Part shown: positions 21,948-32,148 of the stretch, piece by piece
Layout of the letters: every line of letters starts with the position of its first letter
How positions within the stretch are numbered: the first letter of the stretch is position 1
Assembly (NCBI RefSeq): GCF_945957265.1
Contig: NZ_CAMFKO010000022.1
Location: forward strand, 1 to 64,000
Reading direction: 5' to 3'
DNA from: an uncultured Dechloromonas sp.
GTDB taxonomy: Bacteria; Pseudomonadota; Gammaproteobacteria; Burkholderiales; Rhodocyclaceae
DNA: 64,000 nucleotides
Program-made: the position numbers and the translations under genes
The notes under the pieces: generated by a model
What the model was told of the DNA's origin: nothing
What the model saw: only the letters and a program-made list of their open reading frames with translations
The model's database searches: none

Positions 21948-22038
21948 CAGCGCACTTCGGGGAGAGGGGAGGCGGATGTCGCTTCCCCCGGAAAAAGCGC
22001 CGATTGATGCCTGCGGTTTTTGCTAAATCTATTACTTA

Positions 22039-22070
22039 ATGCATACAATCCACCCATTGGATTAGTGCAT
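22039..22070. promoter_or_regulatory. Imperfect inverted repeat before a hybrid kinase
   Basis: ATGCA-TAC-AATCCA on the left and TGGATT-AG-TGCAT on the right form a two-part inverted repeat around CCCAT. It ends 18 bases before the GTG start of the kinase, in an AT-rich patch. An operator or promoter-associated structure is possible; the binder is unknown. Confidence 0.4.
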
Positions 22071-22088
22071 TGGGTGATTGGAGAGCGC

Positions 22089-24959
22089 GTGAGCCGCCGT
22101 ATACTTTTTTTCGTCACCGGCCTTCTGGCCTGTGGATTGGCGCTGGCGGCCTACTTTGCCGAACGGATCAACCAGTCCCGGCACGAAACGGCGATACGGG
22201 CCTTCGTTCATAACGAGCTCGGGCGGGTGCGCGATTCGCTCGAGGGACACCTGAACGCCGATATCCAGCTGGTTCGCGGCCTGACCAGCCTGGTGGCGCT
22301 GACCCCGAACATCGACCAGGAGCGTTTGAATGTGGCGGCCAAACCCCTGTTCGACGGGCGTTCGCAGCTGCGCAGCCTGGCCCTGGCGCCGGACATGGTC
22401 ATTCGCATGGTTTATCCGGTGGCCGGCAACGAGAAGGCCCTGGGGCTGGAATACCGCGGTATTCCGGAGCAGTTCCGGTCGGTGGAACGGGCGCGCCAGA
22501 GTCGCCAGATCGTCCTCGCCGGGCCGTTCAGGCTGGTGCAAGGGGGCGAGGGGCTGGCCGCCCGCTTGCCGGTATATCTGACGGACAGCGGCGGGCGCGA
22601 GTATTTCTGGGGCATCGTCAGTGCCTTGATCGATTCCGAGAAATTGTTTGCCGCCAGCGGCTTGCGTGACGACAAGCTGTCGGTCGAGATTGCGATTCGC
22701 GGGAAGGATGGCGAAGGCGCGAAGGGCGCCGCCTTTTTTGGACGGCCCGATGTCTTCGCCATGAATCCCGTGCTGGCGGACATCTATCTGCCGACGGGTT
22801 CCTGGCAGTTGGCGGCGATTCCCCGGGGCGGCTGGCAAAGCACGCCGGACAACGTCTGGCTGTTGCGCGGCGGCCTGCTGATGGTTTCCGCCCTGGTCCT
22901 CGGCTCCTTCCTGGCACTGATCCGGGCGTGGGGGCTTCTGGCGCAGGCCGGGGAACGTGTCGAGGCGTCGCGTCAGCAATTGTCGGCAACGCTGGAAAGC
23001 ACGCCCAACGTGGCCGTCCAGTGGTATGACCGGACGGGAAAGATCATCTACTGGAACAAGGCCTCGGAACACCTGTACGGCTGGTCGGCGGAAGAGGCGC
23101 TGGGCAAGACCCTCGATCAGCTGATCCTGAGTCCCGCCGAGACGGCCGAGGCCCAGCGCGCCTCGGAGCAGGTCATGGCGAGCGGGCAGCCGGTCGGCCC
23201 GCTGGAGTACATGGCGCGCAATCGGGACGGGGAGATCATCTGGGTCGAGGCGACCAAGTTCGCCATTCCCGGCGACAACAAGGCGGAACCCATCGTCGTC
23301 TGCATGGATGTCGATATTACCGAGCGCAAGCACACGGCCAGGCAGCTCGCCGATTTCAATCGGGATTTCGAAGCGTTTCTGAACGAGACGATCGACTTCA
23401 TCTATTTCAAGGATGCCGATGGCTGCATCCGCTTCTGCAGCCAGACCATGGCCGTCATGGCGAATCGCGTGAGCTGGCGGGAGATGGTCGGCAAGCGCGA
23501 TGCGGATGTCTTCAGCCCGGAAGTCGCCGTCCGCTACGCAGCATCCGACCGCGTCGTCCTCCGCGAAGGAAAGCCCATTCTGGGCGTCATCGAGTCCTAT
23601 CGCGATGCCCATGGCGACGAGCGGCACGTGCAGACCAGCAAATGGCCGCTGTTCGACGAAAGCCAGCAAGTGGTGGGGGTGTTCGGTATCAGCCACGACA
23701 TTTCCGATCGCATGCAATACGAGGCGGAACTGCATGAGCATCGCCAGGACCTCGAAAAGCAGGTCGCCCGGCGCACGGCCGAACTGGCGCATGCCAAGGC
23801 GGCGGCGGAGTCGGCCAGCATCGCCAAGAGCGCTTTCCTGGCCAACATGTCGCATGAAATACGGACGCCGCTCAATGCCATCACCGGCATGGCCCACCTG
23901 ATCCGCCGTGCCGGGCTCCTGCCCGAGCAGGAAGCCCGGCTGGGCAGGCTCGAGCTGGCTTCGGAGCACCTGCTGGAGATCATCAACGCCATCCTCGACC
24001 TGTCCAAGATCGAGGCCGGAAAATTCGTGCTCGACGAATCGCCGGTGCAGCCCGAGCGGCTACTCGCGAATATCGTCGCCATCCTCGGCGACCGCGCGCA
24101 GGCCAAGCACCTCCAGCTGGTCGTCGACTGCGGCGAGGCGCTTCCCCTGCTGGCGGGGGACGCCACGCGGTTGCAGCAGGCGTTGCTCAACTACGCCACC
24201 AATGCCATCAAGTTTACGGAAACCGGAACGATCACCCTGCGCCTGACCCGTCTCGACGAAAACGAGCAGGGCATCCTGCTGCGTTTCGAGATCCAGGACA
24301 CGGGCATCGGCATCCAGCCCGAGCAGTTGCCCCGCCTGTTCGCCGCCTTCGAGCAGGCGGACAATTCGATTACCCGCCGTTACGGCGGCACCGGCCTGGG
24401 CCTGGCGATCACCCGGAAACTGGCCCATGCGATGGGGGGCGAGGCCGGGGCGGACAGCGTGCCGGGCGCGGGAAGCACCTTCTGGCTGACGGCGCGCTTG
24501 AAGCGCTCGTCCGGAACGAACGAGGCGAGAACGGAAATCGGTCAGGAAGAGGCGGCGGATATCGTCTTGAGCAAGGATTTTGCCGGCAGTCGCATCCTGC
24601 TGGTGGAGGACGAGCCGATCAATCGGGAAATCACGCTCGCCATGCTCGGCGCCATCGGCCTGGTCGCCGACATCGCCGAGGACGGACTGGTCGCGCTGGA
24701 CAAGGTCGAAGCGAACGACTACGACCTGATCCTGATGGACATGCAGATGCCGAGGCTGGATGGCCTGGCCGCCACGCTTCGCCTGCGCGCCATGCCGCGG
24801 GCCGCGCCGGTCCCTATCCTGGCCATGACGGCCAACGCCTTCGCCGACGACAAGGAGCGCTGCCTGCAGGCCGGGATGAACGATTTCATCGCCAAGCCGG
24901 TGCGCCACGAAACCTTCTATGCCACGCTGCTCCGGTGGCTGGCCAAGCCCGCGGAATGA
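22089..24959 (+). CDS. Hybrid histidine kinase (CHASE-PAS-PAS-HisKA-HATPase-REC)
   Basis: Membrane hybrid sensor kinase of 956 residues. Helices at about 5-23 and 260-278 bracket a periplasmic CHASE-like domain (about 45-220). Two PAS domains follow (about 295-415 and 425-540), then HisKA with His589 in [11 protein letters not shown], a HATPase with DTGIGI and GTGLGLAI, and a receiver with Asp884 in [11 protein letters not shown]. There is no Hpt domain, so a separate Hpt protein must complete a relay; one is encoded at 47035. I use GTG 22089, which has GGAGAG just upstream and begins right before the first helix; an in-frame TTG at 22020 is unlikely. The kinase core is closely similar to that of the hybrid kinase at 27560. 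Confidence 0.9.
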   Translation: MSRRILFFVTGLLACGLALAAYFAERINQSRHETAIRAFVHNELGRVRDSLEGHLNADIQLVRGLTSLVALTPNIDQERLNVAAKPLFDGRSQLRSLALAPDMVIRMVYPVAGNEKALGLEYRGIPEQFRSVERARQSRQIVLAGPFRLVQGGEGLAARLPVYLTDSGGREYFWGIVSALIDSEKLFAASGLRDDKLSVEIAIRGKDGEGAKGAAFFGRPDVFAMNPVLADIYLPTGSWQLAAIPRGGWQSTPDNVWLLRGGLLMVSALVLGSFLALIRAWGLLAQAGERVEASRQQLSATLESTPNVAVQWYDRTGKIIYWNKASEHLYGWSAEEALGKTLDQLILSPAETAEAQRASEQVMASGQPVGPLEYMARNRDGEIIWVEATKFAIPGDNKAEPIVVCMDVDITERKHTARQLADFNRDFEAFLNETIDFIYFKDADGCIRFCSQTMAVMANRVSWREMVGKRDADVFSPEVAVRYAASDRVVLREGKPILGVIESYRDAHGDERHVQTSKWPLFDESQQVVGVFGISHDISDRMQYEAELHEHRQDLEKQVARRTAELAHAKAAAESASIAKSAFLANMSHEIRTPLNAITGMAHLIRRAGLLPEQEARLGRLELASEHLLEIINAILDLSKIEAGKFVLDESPVQPERLLANIVAILGDRAQAKHLQLVVDCGEALPLLAGDATRLQQALLNYATNAIKFTETGTITLRLTRLDENEQGILLRFEIQDTGIGIQPEQLPRLFAAFEQADNSITRRYGGTGLGLAITRKLAHAMGGEAGADSVPGAGSTFWLTARLKRSSGTNEARTEIGQEEAADIVLSKDFAGSRILLVEDEPINREITLAMLGAIGLVADIAEDGLVALDKVEANDYDLILMDMQMPRLDGLAATLRLRAMPRAAPVPILAMTANAFADDKERCLQAGMNDFIAKPVRHETFYATLLRWLAKPAE

Positions 24960-24964
24960 GCGCG

Positions 24965-24996
24965 CAGCACCTTTCCGCCGTGGCGGAAAGGTGCTG
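24965..24996. terminator. Strong hairpin between converging genes
   Basis: A 15-bp perfect stem (CAGCACCTTTCCGCC with its complement) around a two-base GT loop lies between the converging hybrid kinase and the kinase/PduL fusion gene. No T-run follows. It probably serves as a bidirectional transcription end or 3' stabiliser. Confidence 0.6.
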
Positions 24997-25008
24997 GCCG
25001 GCGGCGCC

Positions 25009-27330
25009 TCAGGCGCGGCTCTGGATTTCCTCGATGTAGCCCAGCGTGCCGGTCTTCAGGTTGCCGGCATTGCCCTCGTCGGTATCGATGTGCATGGCCA
25101 GGCGGAAGGCCGGGTTCACGCGGACGACGACGTCGCCGAAAATCAGCTCGCGCTCGCCCTCGACACGGACGCGGACGACGTAGTTGTCGCGCACCCGGAA
25201 GCGCATGGCGTCTTCCGGCGACATGTGGATGTGGCGCTGGGCGCAGATCACGCCGCGCTCGATCTGCGAGCTGCCGTACGGCCCTTCCAGCGTCAGGCCG
25301 GGGGTGCCGGCAAGGTCGCCCGACTGGCGGATCGGCGGCTGCACGCCGAGCTTGAACTGCTCGGTCATGGCGATCTCGACCTGGGTTTCCTTGCGTGTCG
25401 GGCCGAGGACGCGGACATTGGCGATGCGGCCCTTGGGGCCGACCAGATGCACCTTTTCCTCGCAGGCATACTGGCCCGGCTGCGACAGTTCGTGCATCGG
25501 CGTCAGCTGGTGGCCGGGGCCGAACAGCGCCTCGACGTCGGCTTGCGCCAGGTGCACGTGGTGGGCGGAGATTTCGACCGGGATCGCCGGCGGTTCGTCG
25601 GCCTTGGCTTCCTGCAGCAACTGGTTGCGCTCGATGGCGCGCAGGGCTTCCCAGGCGACGAGGCGTTCGTCGTCGTTGGTGATGACGAGGATGGTGACCG
25701 GCGAATCGTCGGTGGACACGACCGCGTGCGAGCCGATGGCCGACAGGTTGCGGTTCTTTTCCTCGTCGAGCTTGATGCCCATGTAGCCGAGGCCCTGGCA
25801 GGCCAGGCTGCGCACGGTGGCGCTGGTTTCGCCGATGTCGCCGGTGAACACCAGGACGTCGATGCCGCCCATCGCCGCGACATAGGCGCCGATGTTCTTG
25901 CGCACCTGGTAGCAGAAGGCCTTGTGGGCGAGCAGCGCGCGGTGGTGGCCGTCGGCGGCCTGCGCCTCGATTTCGTGGATGTCGTTGGAAATGCCGGAGA
26001 TGCCCTTGAGGCCGCTCTCGGTATTGATCAGCGCCGACAGCTGCTCCGCCGTCATCTGGTGCTGTTCCATCAGGTGGATCATCACCGCCGGGTCGATGCT
26101 GCCCGAGCGGCTGGGCATGATCAGGCCGTCGGACGGCGTCATGCCCATCGTCGTGTCGATCGAGCGGCCATGGTCGATGGCGCACAGCGAGGCGCCGATG
26201 CCGAGGTGGCAGGAGACGATCTCCAGTTCGCCGAGCGGGCGCTTGAGCACTTCGGCGGCCTTCATCGAGACGTAGCGGTGCGAGGTGCCGTGGAAGCCGT
26301 AGCGGCGGATGCCGTGCTGCTTGTAGAGGTCGTAGGGCAGGCCGTAGAGGTAGGCGTAGGGCGCCAGCGTCTGGTGGAAGGCGGTGTCGAACACGGCGAC
26401 CTGCGGCACGTTCGGGAAATGCTTGAGGGCGACGCGGATGCCGGCGACGTTGACCGGGTTGTGCAGCGGCGCGAAAACCGCGAGTTCCTCGATGTCGGCG
26501 ATCACCGCCGGGGTGATGACGGCCGAGCTGGAGAAGCGGTTGCCGCCATGCACGACGCGGTGGCCGATGGCGGTGACGTCTTCCGGATGGAAGGTAAAGG
26601 CCTTGCCGAGCAGGGCGGTCGCTTCGCTCATCACCGAGAACAGGTCGGAAAGCTTGAACGGCGCGTGTTCCAGGGTCTTCTTCTGGGTTCCGACGCTGAC
26701 CGTGATGTGGGCGAACTGCTTGTCGGCGTTGTCGATGATGCCGTGGATGTCGGCGCCGCTTTCCCGGGTGTCGTAGATGCCGAAGTGGATCTGGCTGATG
26801 CCGACGTTGAGGGCGACGACCTTGCCCGGTGCGTTGGTGTGCATCGACAGCGCGTAGGGATCGTCCGACTTGCTGACGGCGCGGGCCTGGGCGGCGACGA
26901 GGTCGACCGACATGGCGCGCGTGCGGTCGGCGAGCAGGCGGGAGAGGTAGCCGACGGCCTTGGGGTTGGTCAGGATGTGGCTGTTGAACACTTCCTGCGG
27001 GATCATCAGCACGAAGCAGCGGTTGCCGGCGATCACGTCGGCGACGATGCGGTCGCCGGTGAGCAGGGACATCACGCCGAAGACATCGCCGGCTTCGAGC
27101 TGGGCGATCACCGAGCGGGTGCCGGTGTTGTCGGTCATCGAAATCTCGGCGTGGCCCGAGATGACGACGCCGATGGCGTGGCCTTCGTCGCCGGTTTCGA
27201 GGATGGCTTCATTGCCTTCGTAGGTCGCCAGGCGCGACTTGATGACGATTTCCTCGACCTTGTCGGCCGGGAAGTTTTCGAACAGTTTCACCTGCTCGAG
27301 GAAAAAACGTTTCAGATCGATTTCGCTCAT
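25009..27330 (-). CDS. Three-domain fusion: cNMP-binding-like + acetate kinase-like + PduL phosphotransacylase
   Basis: One 773-residue chain with three parts. Residues 1-150 resemble a cyclic-nucleotide-binding domain (GDVFGVMSLLTGD near 81-93), but the usual FGE glutamate is Val86. Residues 170-560 match acetate/propionate kinase: Arg258 in HRVVHGG, Asp315 in FDTAFHQT, His347 in YGFHGTSH, Arg408 in SRSG and Glu501 in GDIGE align with catalytic residues. However, the N-terminal SxSxK metal motif reads ISQIH (178-182) and HLGNG reads HLGIG. Residues 582-773 match PduL, with His590/591/593, QPGQ, VRVLGP, RHIHM (His700, His702) and HIDTDE (His747). Together they would interconvert acetyl-CoA, acetyl phosphate and acetate. 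The gene stands alone between two hybrid kinases. Domain identities are firm; kinase activity and ligand are uncertain. Confidence 0.88.
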   Translation of the reverse strand: MSEIDLKRFFLEQVKLFENFPADKVEEIVIKSRLATYEGNEAILETGDEGHAIGVVISGHAEISMTDNTGTRSVIAQLEAGDVFGVMSLLTGDRIVADVIAGNRCFVLMIPQEVFNSHILTNPKAVGYLSRLLADRTRAMSVDLVAAQARAVSKSDDPYALSMHTNAPGKVVALNVGISQIHFGIYDTRESGADIHGIIDNADKQFAHITVSVGTQKKTLEHAPFKLSDLFSVMSEATALLGKAFTFHPEDVTAIGHRVVHGGNRFSSSAVITPAVIADIEELAVFAPLHNPVNVAGIRVALKHFPNVPQVAVFDTAFHQTLAPYAYLYGLPYDLYKQHGIRRYGFHGTSHRYVSMKAAEVLKRPLGELEIVSCHLGIGASLCAIDHGRSIDTTMGMTPSDGLIMPSRSGSIDPAVMIHLMEQHQMTAEQLSALINTESGLKGISGISNDIHEIEAQAADGHHRALLAHKAFCYQVRKNIGAYVAAMGGIDVLVFTGDIGETSATVRSLACQGLGYMGIKLDEEKNRNLSAIGSHAVVSTDDSPVTILVITNDDERLVAWEALRAIERNQLLQEAKADEPPAIPVEISAHHVHLAQADVEALFGPGHQLTPMHELSQPGQYACEEKVHLVGPKGRIANVRVLGPTRKETQVEIAMTEQFKLGVQPPIRQSGDLAGTPGLTLEGPYGSSQIERGVICAQRHIHMSPEDAMRFRVRDNYVVRVRVEGERELIFGDVVVRVNPAFRLAMHIDTDEGNAGNLKTGTLGYIEEIQSRA

Positions 27331-27382
27331 GCTGTTTCTCGCTTTGATGGCGTTATTTTATGGCTTCAAGACTACCATTTTG

Positions 27383-27396
27383 TTGCGCTGCAGCAA
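27383..27396. promoter_or_regulatory. TGC-rich palindrome before the kinase/PduL fusion gene
   Basis: TTGCGCTGCAGCAA contains an 8-bp perfect palindrome GCTGCAGC flanked by TTGC/GCAA symmetry, 53 bases before the fusion-gene start in an AT-rich promoter region. TGC-rich palindromes of this kind are associated with the polyhydroxybutyrate regulator PhaR in betaproteobacteria. That match is from memory and unverified. Confidence 0.35.
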
Positions 27397-27559
27397 AGTT
27401 TTTGCAATCCGCCTTCAATTGCCGTTAACAGCGCTTATGACGAGGCGATGGTGGGGGCGGACGGAAAAGGGCGGAAAGAAATACGGACGCATTTTCGGCA
27501 CAGTCGCCCGTTCGTCGTTAAGATAGCGGATTAGGCTAAACGTCATATTCGGAGGCGCG

Positions 27560-30500
27560 ATGTCCGGCATAGCTTTTCGGGTTCAGCTTGGCGATCGGCC
27601 GGTGGTGCTTTCCGCCGACGAAGGCTGCGTGGACTTGCTCGGCTTCACGGCGCACGACTTCGCCAGCGGCCGGGTTGCGCTGCCCGCCTGCTTCCACGCC
27701 GACGATGCCGATATCGTTGCCGCGCTGTTCGAGAACTCGGCTGGCGATGCGGAGGGCTGCTTCAATGCCCGCATGCGGCATGCGTCGGGAAAAATCCTCT
27801 GCGTCCGCGGCGAATACCGGAAAAATTCCGCGGGCTCCGGCCAGGCGACGCTCGAGCTGCGCCTGGAGGCGGCGGGAAGCCTGTGGGGCAGGCAGGCATC
27901 CGAGCCGATGATGGCCAATTTCGTGGCCATGATGGAAAACACCGACGATTTCATCTTTTTCAAGGACCGCAACCACGTTCTGACCGGCGCCAGCCAGACG
28001 CTGGTCGCCATCACGCACCAGACCGGACACTGGCGCGACCTGTTGGGCAAGACCGATTACGACCTCTTCCCGGAAGACTATGCCGACATCTACTACCGGC
28101 TCGAGAAGCAGGTGTTTGCCACGGGCAAGCCGGTGCAGGAGGTGCAGGCCTATCTGCACGCCGATGGCCGCACGGGCTGGGTCGACAACCGCAAGTATCC
28201 GATCCGCGACGATGCCGGGGAGATCGTCGGCCTGTTCGGCGTGGCGCGGGATATCACCGACAAGGTCAACGCCGAGCAGGAATTGGCTCGCGAGCGCGAG
28301 AACCTCAAGCTGATCCTCGACCATGCGCCGATCGGCATCTGGCTGCAGAACGGCGGGGGAAGGATCAAGTACGTCAACAACGCCTTCTGCCAGTCGGTCG
28401 GGATTCCCGAGACGCGCTTTCAGGGCGTCGAGCACTACCGCGAGTTCATTCCCGAGCCCTTCCTGCAGCAATGCCTCGATTCCGATGCCCTGGCCCTGGC
28501 CAGCCAGGGGACGAGCATCACGCATGAGCGGCTGCCCTTTGTCGACGGGAAAATCCATGACCTGCGCGTGATCAAGGCCGTCAAGCGCGACGAAACGGGG
28601 GCGCCGCTGGCCCTGGTCGGCCTGAGCCTGGACGTCACCGAGGAACTGAAGCAGGGCGAGGCGCTGCGCCAGGAGCGCGATTACCACCGGAACATCCTGG
28701 AAACCGTCGAAGCCATGATCATCGCCCTCGATCTCGACGGGCGCGTGATGTCGATCAACCGGAAGGCGGGCGAGGTGCTCGGCTACCGGCCGGAGGAGCT
28801 GGTCGGCGAGGACTGGTTCGAAACCTGCCTGCGCCAGAGCCGGAATCCCGAGGGGCGGAGCAAGCTGTTTTATAGCGCGGTTTTCGGTGCGGAAACCCGG
28901 ACGGATTATTTCGAATACCCGATCCAGACGCGGGATGGCGAACAACGCCTGATCGCCTGGCATGCCTGTCCGATCCGCGATGCGAACGGGGTGGTCATCG
29001 GCGCGGTGGGTGTCGGCGAGGACGTCACCCAGCGCCGGGCGACGGAAATGGCGGCGGAGCAGAAGCTCAGGCTGTCGCAGCAGCGCTTTGCCTCGATGTT
29101 CCATGCCAGCCCGGTTGCCGCCTCCATCGTCAGGGTCAGGGATGGCCGCTTCGTCGAGGTGAATCGCAACTACGAACGCGATTTCGGCTGGACGGCCGAC
29201 GATCTGCTCGGACGCACCTCGACCGAGCTGGGATTGTGGCCGGACGAGGCGGACCGCAAGCGCTGGGCCGAGCGCCTGCTCCAGGAAGGCCGCCTGATCG
29301 ACTGGGAGACGCGCTGGCTGCACAAGAACGGCACGCGCCGGCAGGTCAGCCTTTCCGCCGAGGTCACCGAGCTGGACGGCGAGTTGTGCATCCTCGGGTT
29401 CGTCATTGACGTCACCGAACGCCGGCGCGCCGAGCGGATTCTCCGCAATCATCACGCCGAGCTGGAAAACGAGGTGCGGGAACGCACCGCCCAGCTGGCC
29501 GAAGCCAAGGAGGCCGCCGAAAAGGCGAGCCTGGCGAAGAGCGCCTTCCTGGCCAACATGTCCCACGAGATCCGGACCCCGCTCAACGCCATCGCCGGCA
29601 TGGCGCACCTGATCAGGCGGACAGGCCTGAGCGACGAGCAGGAGCGGAAGCTGGACAAGCTGGAGATGGCCAGCGGCCACCTGCTGAACATCATCAACGC
29701 CATACTCGAACTGTCGAAGATCGAGGCCGGCAAGTTCATCCTGGAGGAGCAGACCGTGGATGTGGCCGACCTGCTATCCGGCGTGGTCGCCATTTTCCGC
29801 GAGCGGGCGGTCGAGAAGGGGCTGGAGATCCTGGTCGAAACGGATGCCCTCGCCTGTTCGCTGCTCGGGGATTCGACCCGCCTGAGCCAGGCCTTGATGA
29901 ACTATGTCGGCAATGCCATCAAGTTTACCGAGGTGGGGCGGATCACGGTGCGCGTCCGGAAGATCAGCGAGGAAGAGACCACGGCGACACTGCGTTTCGA
30001 GGTCGTGGATACCGGGATCGGCATCCCGCAGGAAGCGGTCGGGCGCCTGTTTTCGGCATTCGAGCAGGCCGACAATTCGACGACGCGGCGCTATGGCGGC
30101 ACCGGGCTGGGGCTGGCCATCACCCAGAAGCTGGCCCGCCTGATGGGGGGCGATGCCGGCGTCAGCAGCCGCGAAGGCGACGGCAGCACCTTCTGGTTCT
30201 CGGCGTCCCTGCGCAAGTCCGGCGTGGCGGCGCGGGTCGCCGCGACCCAGGGCGAATCGGTTTTCGCTGCCTTGCAGCGACGTTTTGCCGGGCGCCGCAT
30301 CCTGATTGTCGATGACGAGCCGATCAACCAGGAAATAGCCCAGCTGATGCTCGAGGAAGCCGGTCTGCTGGTCGATCTCGCCAGCGACGGCGTGGCCGGC
30401 GTGGCCAGCGTCGAAGAGACCGCCTACGACCTCGTCCTGATGGACATGCAGATGCCGCGCATGGACGGGCTCGAAGCGACGCGGCGCATACGGGGCATGG

Positions 30501-30664
30501 CCGAGCGCGGGCAGGTGCCGATCCTGGCCATGACGGCGAACGCCTTCGTCGAGGACAGGGCGCGCTGTCTGGCGGCCGGGATGAACGATTTCATCGCCAA
30601 GCCGATCAATCCGGACCGCTTGTACGAGCTGGTCGCCCGCTGGTTGAGAGACCCGGGCGCCTAG
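27560..30664 (+). CDS. Soluble hybrid histidine kinase with multiple PAS domains
   Basis: A 1034-residue cytoplasmic hybrid kinase without membrane helices. Four to five PAS-type domains can be placed at about 1-105 (weak), 115-235, 245-362, 372-492 and 503-620. HisKA follows with His669 in [11 protein letters not shown], then a HATPase ([14 protein letters not shown]) and a receiver with Asp962 in [11 protein letters not shown]. The FIFFKDRNH string in the second PAS also occurs, slightly changed, as FIYFKDADG in the kinase at 22089; the catalytic cores are clearly paralogous. GGAGG sits before the ATG. It diverges from the kinase/PduL fusion gene, and its stop overlaps by four bases that of the converging PAS-GGDEF gene. 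Confidence 0.9.
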
Positions 30665-31962
30665 TCGGGCTGGCAGGCGGGAAGGGCGGATTCGACCCGG
30701 TTTCGCCCTTCCGACTTGGCCTTGTAGAGCGCCGAGTCAGCTTCGGAGATGAGCGCCCTGATGTCGATGGCCCGGCCTTGGGCGGCCGAGACGCCGGCGC
30801 TGAGCGTGATCGACATGGGCAGCCCGGGTGTTGCGTCGACGACCGCCTGGCGTACCTTCTCGGCGACCCGGTGCATGTCCTGAAGGGCCGTGTTGGGCGC
30901 CAGGATCAGGAATTCCTCGCCGCCCCAGCGGCAGACCATGTCGGAGCCGCGCACGGTGTTCTTGATCACCACGCCGACCTGGCGCAACACCTGGTCGCCC
31001 GTGAGGTGGCCATGCAGGTCGTTGATCTGCTTGAAATGGTCGATGTCGAGAAAGGCGATGCCGAGCGGCAGATCCATGCGCCGGCAGAACTGCGCCTGGG
31101 TGTCGAGGAAGGCGTTGGCCTCGCGGCGGTTGGGGAGCCCGGTCAGCGGGTCGAAGGACGCGAGTTCCTGGAGCTGGAGCTCGAGCTGCTTGCGGTCGCT
31201 GATGTCCTGGACCATGCCGACGACCCGGGCCGGCTCGCCGTCGGGGCCGAAGGCGCAGACGCGGCCGCGGTCGTGAACCCAGAGATAGTGGCCGTTGCGG
31301 TTGCGCAGCCGGTAGATGACATCGAAGCGGGCGCGCTTGCCCTGCATGTGTTCGCTCAGGACGCCCAGCACATCGGCGACGTCGTCGGGATGAACGTTCA
31401 GCTTCCAGGTATCCAGCACCGGCGCCATTTCATCGGGGCCGTAGCCCAGCATGCGCTTGAGCTGCGGGCTGAAATACAGCTTGCCGGTCGCCACCTCCCA
31501 GTCCCACAGGCCGTCGGTGGCTTCGTTCAAGGCGAACCAGAGCTGCTTTTCCCTGTCCTCGAGATCCTGCTGCTGCGCCAGTTGGCGCGACAGGTTGTGG
31601 GCGACGGAGAGGAAATAGGGACGGCCCGCATGCTCGAACGAGGTGGTGAGCACCTCTACTTCAATCTCGTGGCCATCGCGATGCCGATGCCGGCCGAGGA
31701 AACGATAGCAGTCGCTGGCGCGAATGATCCCGGCGATTTCCGACCACTGCGGCAGACCGTGGATATCCTTCTGCAGGCTGAGGACGCTGTGGTTGAGGAT
31801 GTCTTCCCGCGTCAGGCCGAGGCATTCCCAGGCGATGCGGTTGGCCCAGACGATGTTCGAGGTGTCCGGGTCGATCAGGTAAACCGCATCGGCCAGATGT
31901 TCGAACAGCGTCAGCGTATCGGGCAGGGTGCCGTTCGGTGGGAGGGGGGCGCGCTCTGGCAT
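30661..31962 (-). CDS. PAS-PAS-GGDEF diguanylate cyclase
   Basis: Cytoplasmic diguanylate cyclase of about 433 residues. A first PAS domain ([20 protein letters not shown]) and a second PAS/PAC domain ([20 protein letters not shown]) precede a GGDEF domain. The catalytic signature is GGEEF, and RGSD lies five residues upstream, so the inhibitory I-site is intact. The linker [20 protein letters not shown] is the usual entry to the catalytic domain. I favour ATG 31962; a GTG at 31980 is also in frame, and neither has a clear ribosome site. It is transcribed toward the hybrid kinase at 27560 and its stop overlaps that gene. Confidence 0.88.
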
Positions 31963-32148
31963 GACGGATGGAAATGACACGTGAGCAGGCTATTCTAGCG
32001 GCTTTTTGTGTCAAGGAAGGCGGCGTGGCCTTGTTTTCGGCGGATATCCATTCGCTTTGAATACCCGCCGGTCATGCCGTGCGGGGCCGGCATCCGCCAT
32101 CGGGCCGTTCCTTCGTGCCCGCGGCGGCGACGGTGCAAGCTCGGCCGG

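Follow-up and report, generated by a model that had tools for sequence, protein, structure and literature searches.

The window analysed here is a 64,000-nucleotide stretch of DNA from an uncultured Dechloromonas sp. On its minus strand lies an open reading frame of 773 residues in which a Pfam search matches cNMP_binding first, then Acetate_kinase and finally PTAC, going from the N-terminus to the C-terminus:

25009..27330, minus strand: three-domain protein of 773 amino acids with an ATG start, from ORF call, Pfam, homologues and structure model
26974..27225, minus strand: CRP/CNB-fold domain, PF00027, residues 36-119
25654..26823, minus strand: acetate-kinase domain, PF00871, residues 170-559
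25057..25581, minus strand: PduL-type phosphotransacylase domain, PF06130, residues 584-758

This is the arrangement that the first-pass annotation had proposed, namely a cNMP-binding-like domain, an acetate kinase and a PduL in one polypeptide. It had named a frameshift, a join between separate genes or a missing terminal profile as grounds for doubt, but the frame is intact and both the N-terminal and the C-terminal profiles match. Full-length copies are present in 33 of the 36 genomes of the genus, the window's own included, and in 90 of 395 genomes of the family; therefore the fusion of three domains in a single chain is real, and neither a frameshift nor an assembly join accounts for it. 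Foldseek ranking of the structure model assigns a CNB fold to the first domain, an acetokinase fold to the second and the PTAC fold to the third, and the protein scores 420.9 against TIGR00016, NCBI's ackA model in NCBIfam (cut-off 293.4). An 871-residue open frame, called mechanically, lies antisense over the whole gene (24919-27534 of the window, plus strand); frames of this kind often occur in coding DNA of high GC content. The gene has a hybrid histidine kinase on either side (22020-24959 and 27560-30664, both plus strand), with a PAS-GGDEF protein beyond (30661-31980, minus strand).

The three genus genomes without the three-domain frame include one that is 93% complete and two that are 74-79% complete. 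The 90 family genomes span 17 of the 68 genera drawn (hand count); one of them holds two tandem copies, and three further genomes show the gene in pieces. No full-length match was found in 24 genomes drawn from the order's other families. A phylum-wide draw of 398 genomes gave, besides the window's own genome, a full-length match in one genome of another class, as well as AckA-PduL without a first-domain match in two genomes; within that other class the three-domain protein occurred in 1 of 240 genomes, which was the query's own. Among the matches listed (80 loci), named relatives place the window protein near Azonexus and Dechloromonas, and an uncultured Azonexus has a partial copy 97% identical to it. 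Three-domain forms among the matches listed also came from Planctomycetota, Verrucomicrobiota, Hydrogenedentes, Chitinivibrionales and Syntrophaceae, and the two-domain AckA-PduL mostly from Rhodobacterales, relatives of Rhizobiales and Granulosicoccaceae. When 60 members were aligned, AckA and PTAC matched in 60/60 and cNMP_binding in 39/60. The architecture is scattered over several phyla, and the form in the window's lineage is derived. Among the matches listed from open-licence papers, no title or abstract opening described the three-domain protein or the altered kinase, which is no proof of absence.

Two loci illustrate further arrangements. Rhodocyclus purpureus DSM 168 carries a tandem pair of three-domain genes (L095:6564-11357; also L059) that share 76% identity; in each, the pocket is rewritten as described below and Asp replaces Asn7. 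In another genome of the window's family (G166), ackA and pduL are separate and adjacent (L072:8013-9815), with mostly canonical kinase motifs, and represent an unfused counterpart.

The C-terminal domain was compared across the 122 distinct copies of the Rhodocyclales clade, by which we mean the clade of that name in our tree; a few of its rows are titled only broadly, e.g., Proteobacteria bacterium. Its metal ligands in the window protein are as follows:

25552..25560, minus strand: PduL Zn1 ligands H591 and H593 (rPduL H48 and H50)
25222..25236, minus strand: PduL RHIHM motif, with Zn2 ligands H700 and H702 (rPduL H157 and H159)
25075..25092, minus strand: PduL HIDTDE motif, with Zn2 ligand H747 (rPduL H204)

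In rPduL numbering, H48, H50, R103, E109, H157 and H159 are found in 122/122 clade copies and H204 in 121, the remaining copy being gapped at that position. The roles of the metal ligands, E109 among them, and of R103 as a phosphate contact follow the excerpted text of PMC4784909. With these ligands, Arg103 and the tested CoA contacts all conserved, the domain looks fully catalytic, in agreement with its earlier identification as a phosphotransacylase. Compared with Rhodopseudomonas palustris PduL (5cuo), the PduL of the window is the C-terminal part of a larger chain. PF06130 matches this gene alone in the window's genome, where no other PduL was found.

The N-terminal domain had been read as a possible small-molecule switch of the cyclic-nucleotide type. 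Such receptors are defined by an Arg and a Glu in the phosphate-binding cassette, the equivalent of which is located here:

27040..27081, minus strand: phosphate-binding-cassette equivalent, residues 84-97 (FGVMSLLTGDRIVA), with Val86 at the Glu position, Ile95 at the aligned Arg position and an Arg at 94

The Arg position, set by alignment with 7pza, holds Arg in 0/121 scored clade copies (one more is gapped) and in 0/14 other three-domain proteins. The cassette Glu is present in 32/122 clade copies and in all 14 of the outside three-domain proteins. One residue before the aligned position, at Arg94, 93/122 clade copies have Arg, and this residue could bind phosphate if the register differs. 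The CRP-like fold of the earlier proposal is thus confirmed, but the cassette, with Ile and Val at its two key positions, makes classical cAMP or cGMP binding unlikely; some regulatory role is plausible. In its structure (4avb), the mycobacterial lysine acetyltransferase Rv0998 has cAMP bound, whereas in the window domain the cassette Glu is missing and the aligned position holds no Arg. A CNB domain can also house a different ligand, as in a guanosine-bound trypanosome PKA subunit that appears in the fold list; the cAMP-independent PKA regulatory subunit of Trypanosoma cruzi (6hyq) is a protein unrelated to that of the window. In Verrucomicrobium sp. BvORR106, the gene directly upstream of the fusion (L124:4676-6529) encodes a lyase of the fumarase type that has a cNMP_binding domain at its N-terminus, so that two adjoining metabolic enzymes are both headed by CNB modules.

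The central domain departs most from its relatives. Residues were numbered as in the acetate kinase of Methanosarcina thermophila (MtACK) by way of the 1tuu alignment, and ten conserved nucleotide-site residues that MtACK shares with its relatives were scored (S10, S12, K14, N211, G239, T240, R285, G331, N335 and E384). T240 entered only as a LOOP3 neighbour, and E384 is counted for a role in acetate kinase that we presume. Nucleotide-site roles of MtACK residues were taken from the excerpted text of PMC4390882. The window protein keeps 0/10 of these residues, with the following replacements in the 1tuu mapping:

26785..26808, minus strand: PHOSPHATE1, residues 175-182 NVGISQIH (canonical NxGSSSxK), S10 to I178, S12 to Q180 and K14 to H182
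26188..26211, minus strand: PHOSPHATE2, residues 374-381 CHLGIGAS, N211 to I378
26098..26118, minus strand: LOOP3, residues 405-411 MPSRSGS, G239 to P406 and T240 to S407, with R241 kept as R408
25972..25986, minus strand: LOOP4, residues 449-453 NDIHE, R285 to H452
25825..25848, minus strand: ADENOSINE, residues 495-502 FTGDIGET, G331 to D498 and N335 to T502
25660..25677, minus strand: residues 552-557 NDDERL, E384 to D554

Set against MtACK (1g99/1tuy), the window protein therefore differs both in these ten residues and in being fused to two further domains. The same condition runs through the clade: at least eight of the ten residues are replaced in every copy (122/122), with none kept in 101, one in 17 and two in 4, and thinning below 90% identity (n=62) left 49, 12 and 1 copies in these classes. 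Eight positions are kept in 0/122 copies, T240 in 9 and R285 in 16; S10, S12, K14, N211, G239, R285 and G331 are all replaced in the window, and six of these seven are never kept. Many replacements are uniform across the 122 copies (Q180 in 116, P406 in 104, D498 in 98, D554 in 113), and others vary, with Ile, Leu, Val, His or Arg at the S10 site and His (95) or Arg (27) in place of K14. The scored set omits partial or split fusions (L096, L148, L149 and L160), exact duplicates and the three family genomes in which the gene is fragmented (G362, G414 and G429).

Sequences outside the clade retain the nucleotide site. Three-domain proteins keep 9/10 of the residues in 14/14 cases (nine lack N335 and five N211), two-domain AckA-PduL proteins keep 8-10 (33 scored of 35, two being gapped), and solo kinases keep 9-10 in 12/12. 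The solo set omits a PduL-only ORF (L072) and an over-long ORF (L066), and of L110, L122 and L123 only L123 was added. Among the 34 genomes of the genus that have a solo kinase match, 20 were sampled for one such kinase each, and these keep 9/10 in 20/20. Five three-domain proteins from Syntrophaceae/Smithella and a deltaproteobacterial MAG (L125-L129) keep 9/10, with Ser at Asn211 in 5/5. Conserved positions were defined on 61 reference kinases: of those conserved at 90% or more, 9/17 in the nucleotide site were switched compared with 6/77 elsewhere (Fisher p 6.6e-5), and at 85% or more the counts were 9/18 and 10/98 (Fisher p 2.6e-4); these p-values are descriptive, as the 19-position site list was partly chosen after the motif differences had been noticed. 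In the excerpted text of PMC4390882, single changes in MtACK (N211A/S/T, G239A/S, G331A/Q) lower activity about 6-200 fold, and G331 is called completely conserved in ATP-dependent acetate kinases in the excerpt of PMC5517563.

The acyl/phosphoryl side of the same domain is fixed. R91, H123, D148, F179, H180 and R241 are present in 122/122 clade copies, the window included, and N7 is kept in the window and in 119/122. We take R91, H123, D148, H180 and R241 to be catalytic residues used for phosphoryl transfer. The loss of nearly all ATP-binding residues beside a preserved acetate/acyl-phosphate site suggests that the clade's kinase domain has probably ceased to function as a normal ATP-forming kinase. 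Median dN/dS over 42 close copies was 0.15 for this domain, 0.17 for the cNMP-like domain and 0.09 for PduL; given this purifying selection and the many uniform replacements, the altered site looks like a maintained change, not decay.

A tree of the AckA-PduL columns, from which the scored pocket columns had been removed, was used to place the change. Rhodocyclales rows form one clade (SH-aLRT 100) that nests among three-domain proteins with intact ATP motifs, and both the loss of Gly331 and that of the cassette Glu need one change each. The tree was built by a quick method with no bootstrap from rows thinned by identity (34/81 clade, 14/14 other three-domain and 25/35 two-domain). Because the three-domain relatives outside the clade keep 9/10 in 14/14, the change arose within a fusion bearing ATP motifs, and the data point to a single event in the Rhodocyclales clade, starting from a three-domain ancestor that would have had those motifs in its kinase. 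Reading this as loss and not gain assumes a root outside the clade, which the two-domain proteins and solo kinases support.

Conservation of the genes around the fusion was not seen across the clade: the most frequent families of neighbours occurred in 7 loci, some shared within the genus; no operon partner was found, and therefore no pathway is implied. This survey used simple gene calling, in which a longer antisense frame took the place of the window's gene and of some other copies, so that these were missed. A simple scan found no promoter-like site, and no microcompartment gene was seen among the seven window neighbours scanned. Recent horizontal acquisition was considered and rejected, as base composition gives no sign of it (GC 0.60-0.68 over the gene and 0.61-0.70 around it) and the gene is genus-wide. 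Elsewhere, the window's genome encodes an acetate kinase apart from the fusion, with an adjoining PTA_PTB-family gene, and two more PTA_PTB matches lie in 765-772 aa frames that may be malic enzymes; a solo AckA match is present in 34/36 genus genomes (hand count). A search for phosphoketolase as a source of acetyl phosphate was negative in the window's genome, which is 91% complete, and positive in 12/40 genus genomes, the window's own being among those searched. Outside the clade, phosphoketolase genes lie near a three-domain fusion (L146:9140-11557) and a two-domain one (L070:5574-7958), profile-checked in those two only, and L139 and L145 lie near the same gene cluster. This proximity fits an ancestral role in acetyl-phosphate metabolism.

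We tentatively read the window protein as a PduL-type phosphotransacylase with two ligand-binding modules, in which the former kinase would sense acyl phosphate or a carboxylate, a reading that may well prove mistaken. The PduL part would catalyse acyl phosphate + CoA <-> acyl-CoA + Pi. Upstream of it would stand a CRP-fold domain, probably no classical cyclic-nucleotide receptor, and an acetate-kinase domain that would be out of ATP service and may still bind acyl phosphate or carboxylate, acting as a sensor that governs the transacylase or its oligomer state. Large bacterial Pta enzymes combine a phosphotransacetylase with an N-terminal regulatory region, and the window protein might work in the same way; the regulatory addition is alike, whereas the catalytic fold and the regulatory domains are unrelated. 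We infer from sequence and fold that ATP/ADP use is absent, that a ligand is sensed and that PduL is controlled. Several features run against a sensor. R91, H123, D148, H180 and R241 would not all be needed for sensing alone, and their invariance makes chemistry with another partner possible; moreover, some positions vary instead of being fixed (S10, K14 with Arg in 27/122, R285 kept in 16/122). The mostly Asp residue at E384 could presumably still hold Mg, and residual ATP activity is possible.

The main rival, which we consider unlikely, is that the domain still transfers phosphoryl groups with a donor or acceptor other than ATP/ADP (PPi/Pi, polyphosphate or a metabolite), making the chain a bifunctional non-ATP acyl-phosphate enzyme. 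Besides the invariant acyl side, it can draw on the PPi-dependent Entamoeba enzyme, which differs at the N211, G239 and G331 positions according to the excerpt of PMC4390882. Loss of the Gly at MtACK 331 is shared with the Entamoeba histolytica PPi-acetate kinase and its Anaerolineaceae relatives, the latter having Asp there as the window protein does, and the excerpted authors leave open whether the Anaerolineaceae kinases use neither ATP nor PPi (PMC5517563). Unlike the Entamoeba enzyme, however, the window protein is fused and lacks both the extra PHOSPHATE2 Gly and Asp at 330. An extended PHOSPHATE2 loop with a second Gly occurs in 0/81 clade copies; of the EhACK signature of Asp at 330 with a non-Gly 331 only the second half is seen, as 330 is Gly in 81/81 and 331 is Asp, Arg, Glu or Ala, and 332 is Ile or Val, not Met. 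The replacements mostly drop hydrogen-bonding or positive groups (S to I, K to H, N to I, R to H) and add an acid (G to D), which would be unhelpful for a polyanion, and EhACK-type substitutions in the E. coli and M. thermophila enzymes gave no PPi use in the excerpt of PMC5517563. A fuller version is somewhat less likely again: the nucleotide site would have been rebuilt for another partner with acyl-phosphate chemistry whole, giving an acyl-phosphate <-> acyl-CoA machine that runs on or reports a non-ATP currency and is gated by a CRP-fold domain reading a non-cyclic ligand, e.g., a nucleoside.

The first-pass annotation had supposed that acetyl phosphate could pass between the sites, with acetyl-CoA/acetate exchange possibly under a small-molecule switch. 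A reading close to it, a bifunctional AckA-PduL that uses ATP in the ordinary way, with its affinity for ATP lowered or retuned and an allosteric switch, appears improbable. Its fold and acyl site are intact, the TIGR00016 score lies above cut-off, and single MtACK substitutions leave measurable activity in the excerpt of PMC4390882. Against this, at least eight positions, G331 included, changed together in every clade copy, and relatives and same-genus solo kinases retain the ATP motifs; the 0/10 score and the separate AckA and PTA_PTB of the genome likewise disfavour ATP-linked channelling of acetyl phosphate. The three-domain forms outside the clade, with 9/10 residues, would suit the bifunctional idea better. 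It is equally improbable that the domain is a mere structural or oligomerisation scaffold for PduL, for although acetate kinases are dimers and the nucleotide site is lost, a scaffold has no need of acyl-pocket residues kept in 122/122. Hydrolysis of acyl phosphate with water as acceptor, setting the acetyl-phosphate pool, would use the retained acyl-phosphate site and explain the lost acceptor site, but it is the least probable reading, being wasteful unless regulated in a chain whose other enzyme forms or consumes acyl phosphate.

The automatic kinase name of the window's lineage is probably wrong about substrate. With the ackA-model match and kinase labels in place, pathway reconstructions would likely credit these organisms with an extra ATP-forming acetate route that is probably absent. 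The order to which the window's organism belongs is abundant in wastewater treatment (PMC7054561, in excerpt). The lineage also offers a natural experiment, with the ATP site replaced once in a widespread fusion, the acyl site fixed and the sisters unchanged, and it opens to testing which phosphoryl partner serves acetate kinases that have Asp in place of Gly331, a question posed in the excerpt of PMC5517563. If PduL is regulated through the former kinase, this would be a new control of the acetyl-phosphate/acetyl-CoA node. Three two-domain plasmid relatives examined were all labelled 'acetate/propionate family kinase'. On plasmid pPNAP02 of Polaromonas naphthalenivorans (L196), where this is the sole annotation, the AckA-PduL gene adjoins ppk2, fabI, a P-type ATPase and a DUF3141 gene. 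On pSmeRU11d of Sinorhizobium meliloti (L197), a kinase-annotated AckA-PduL is followed by a short PduL/EutD fragment, which suggests a split fusion.
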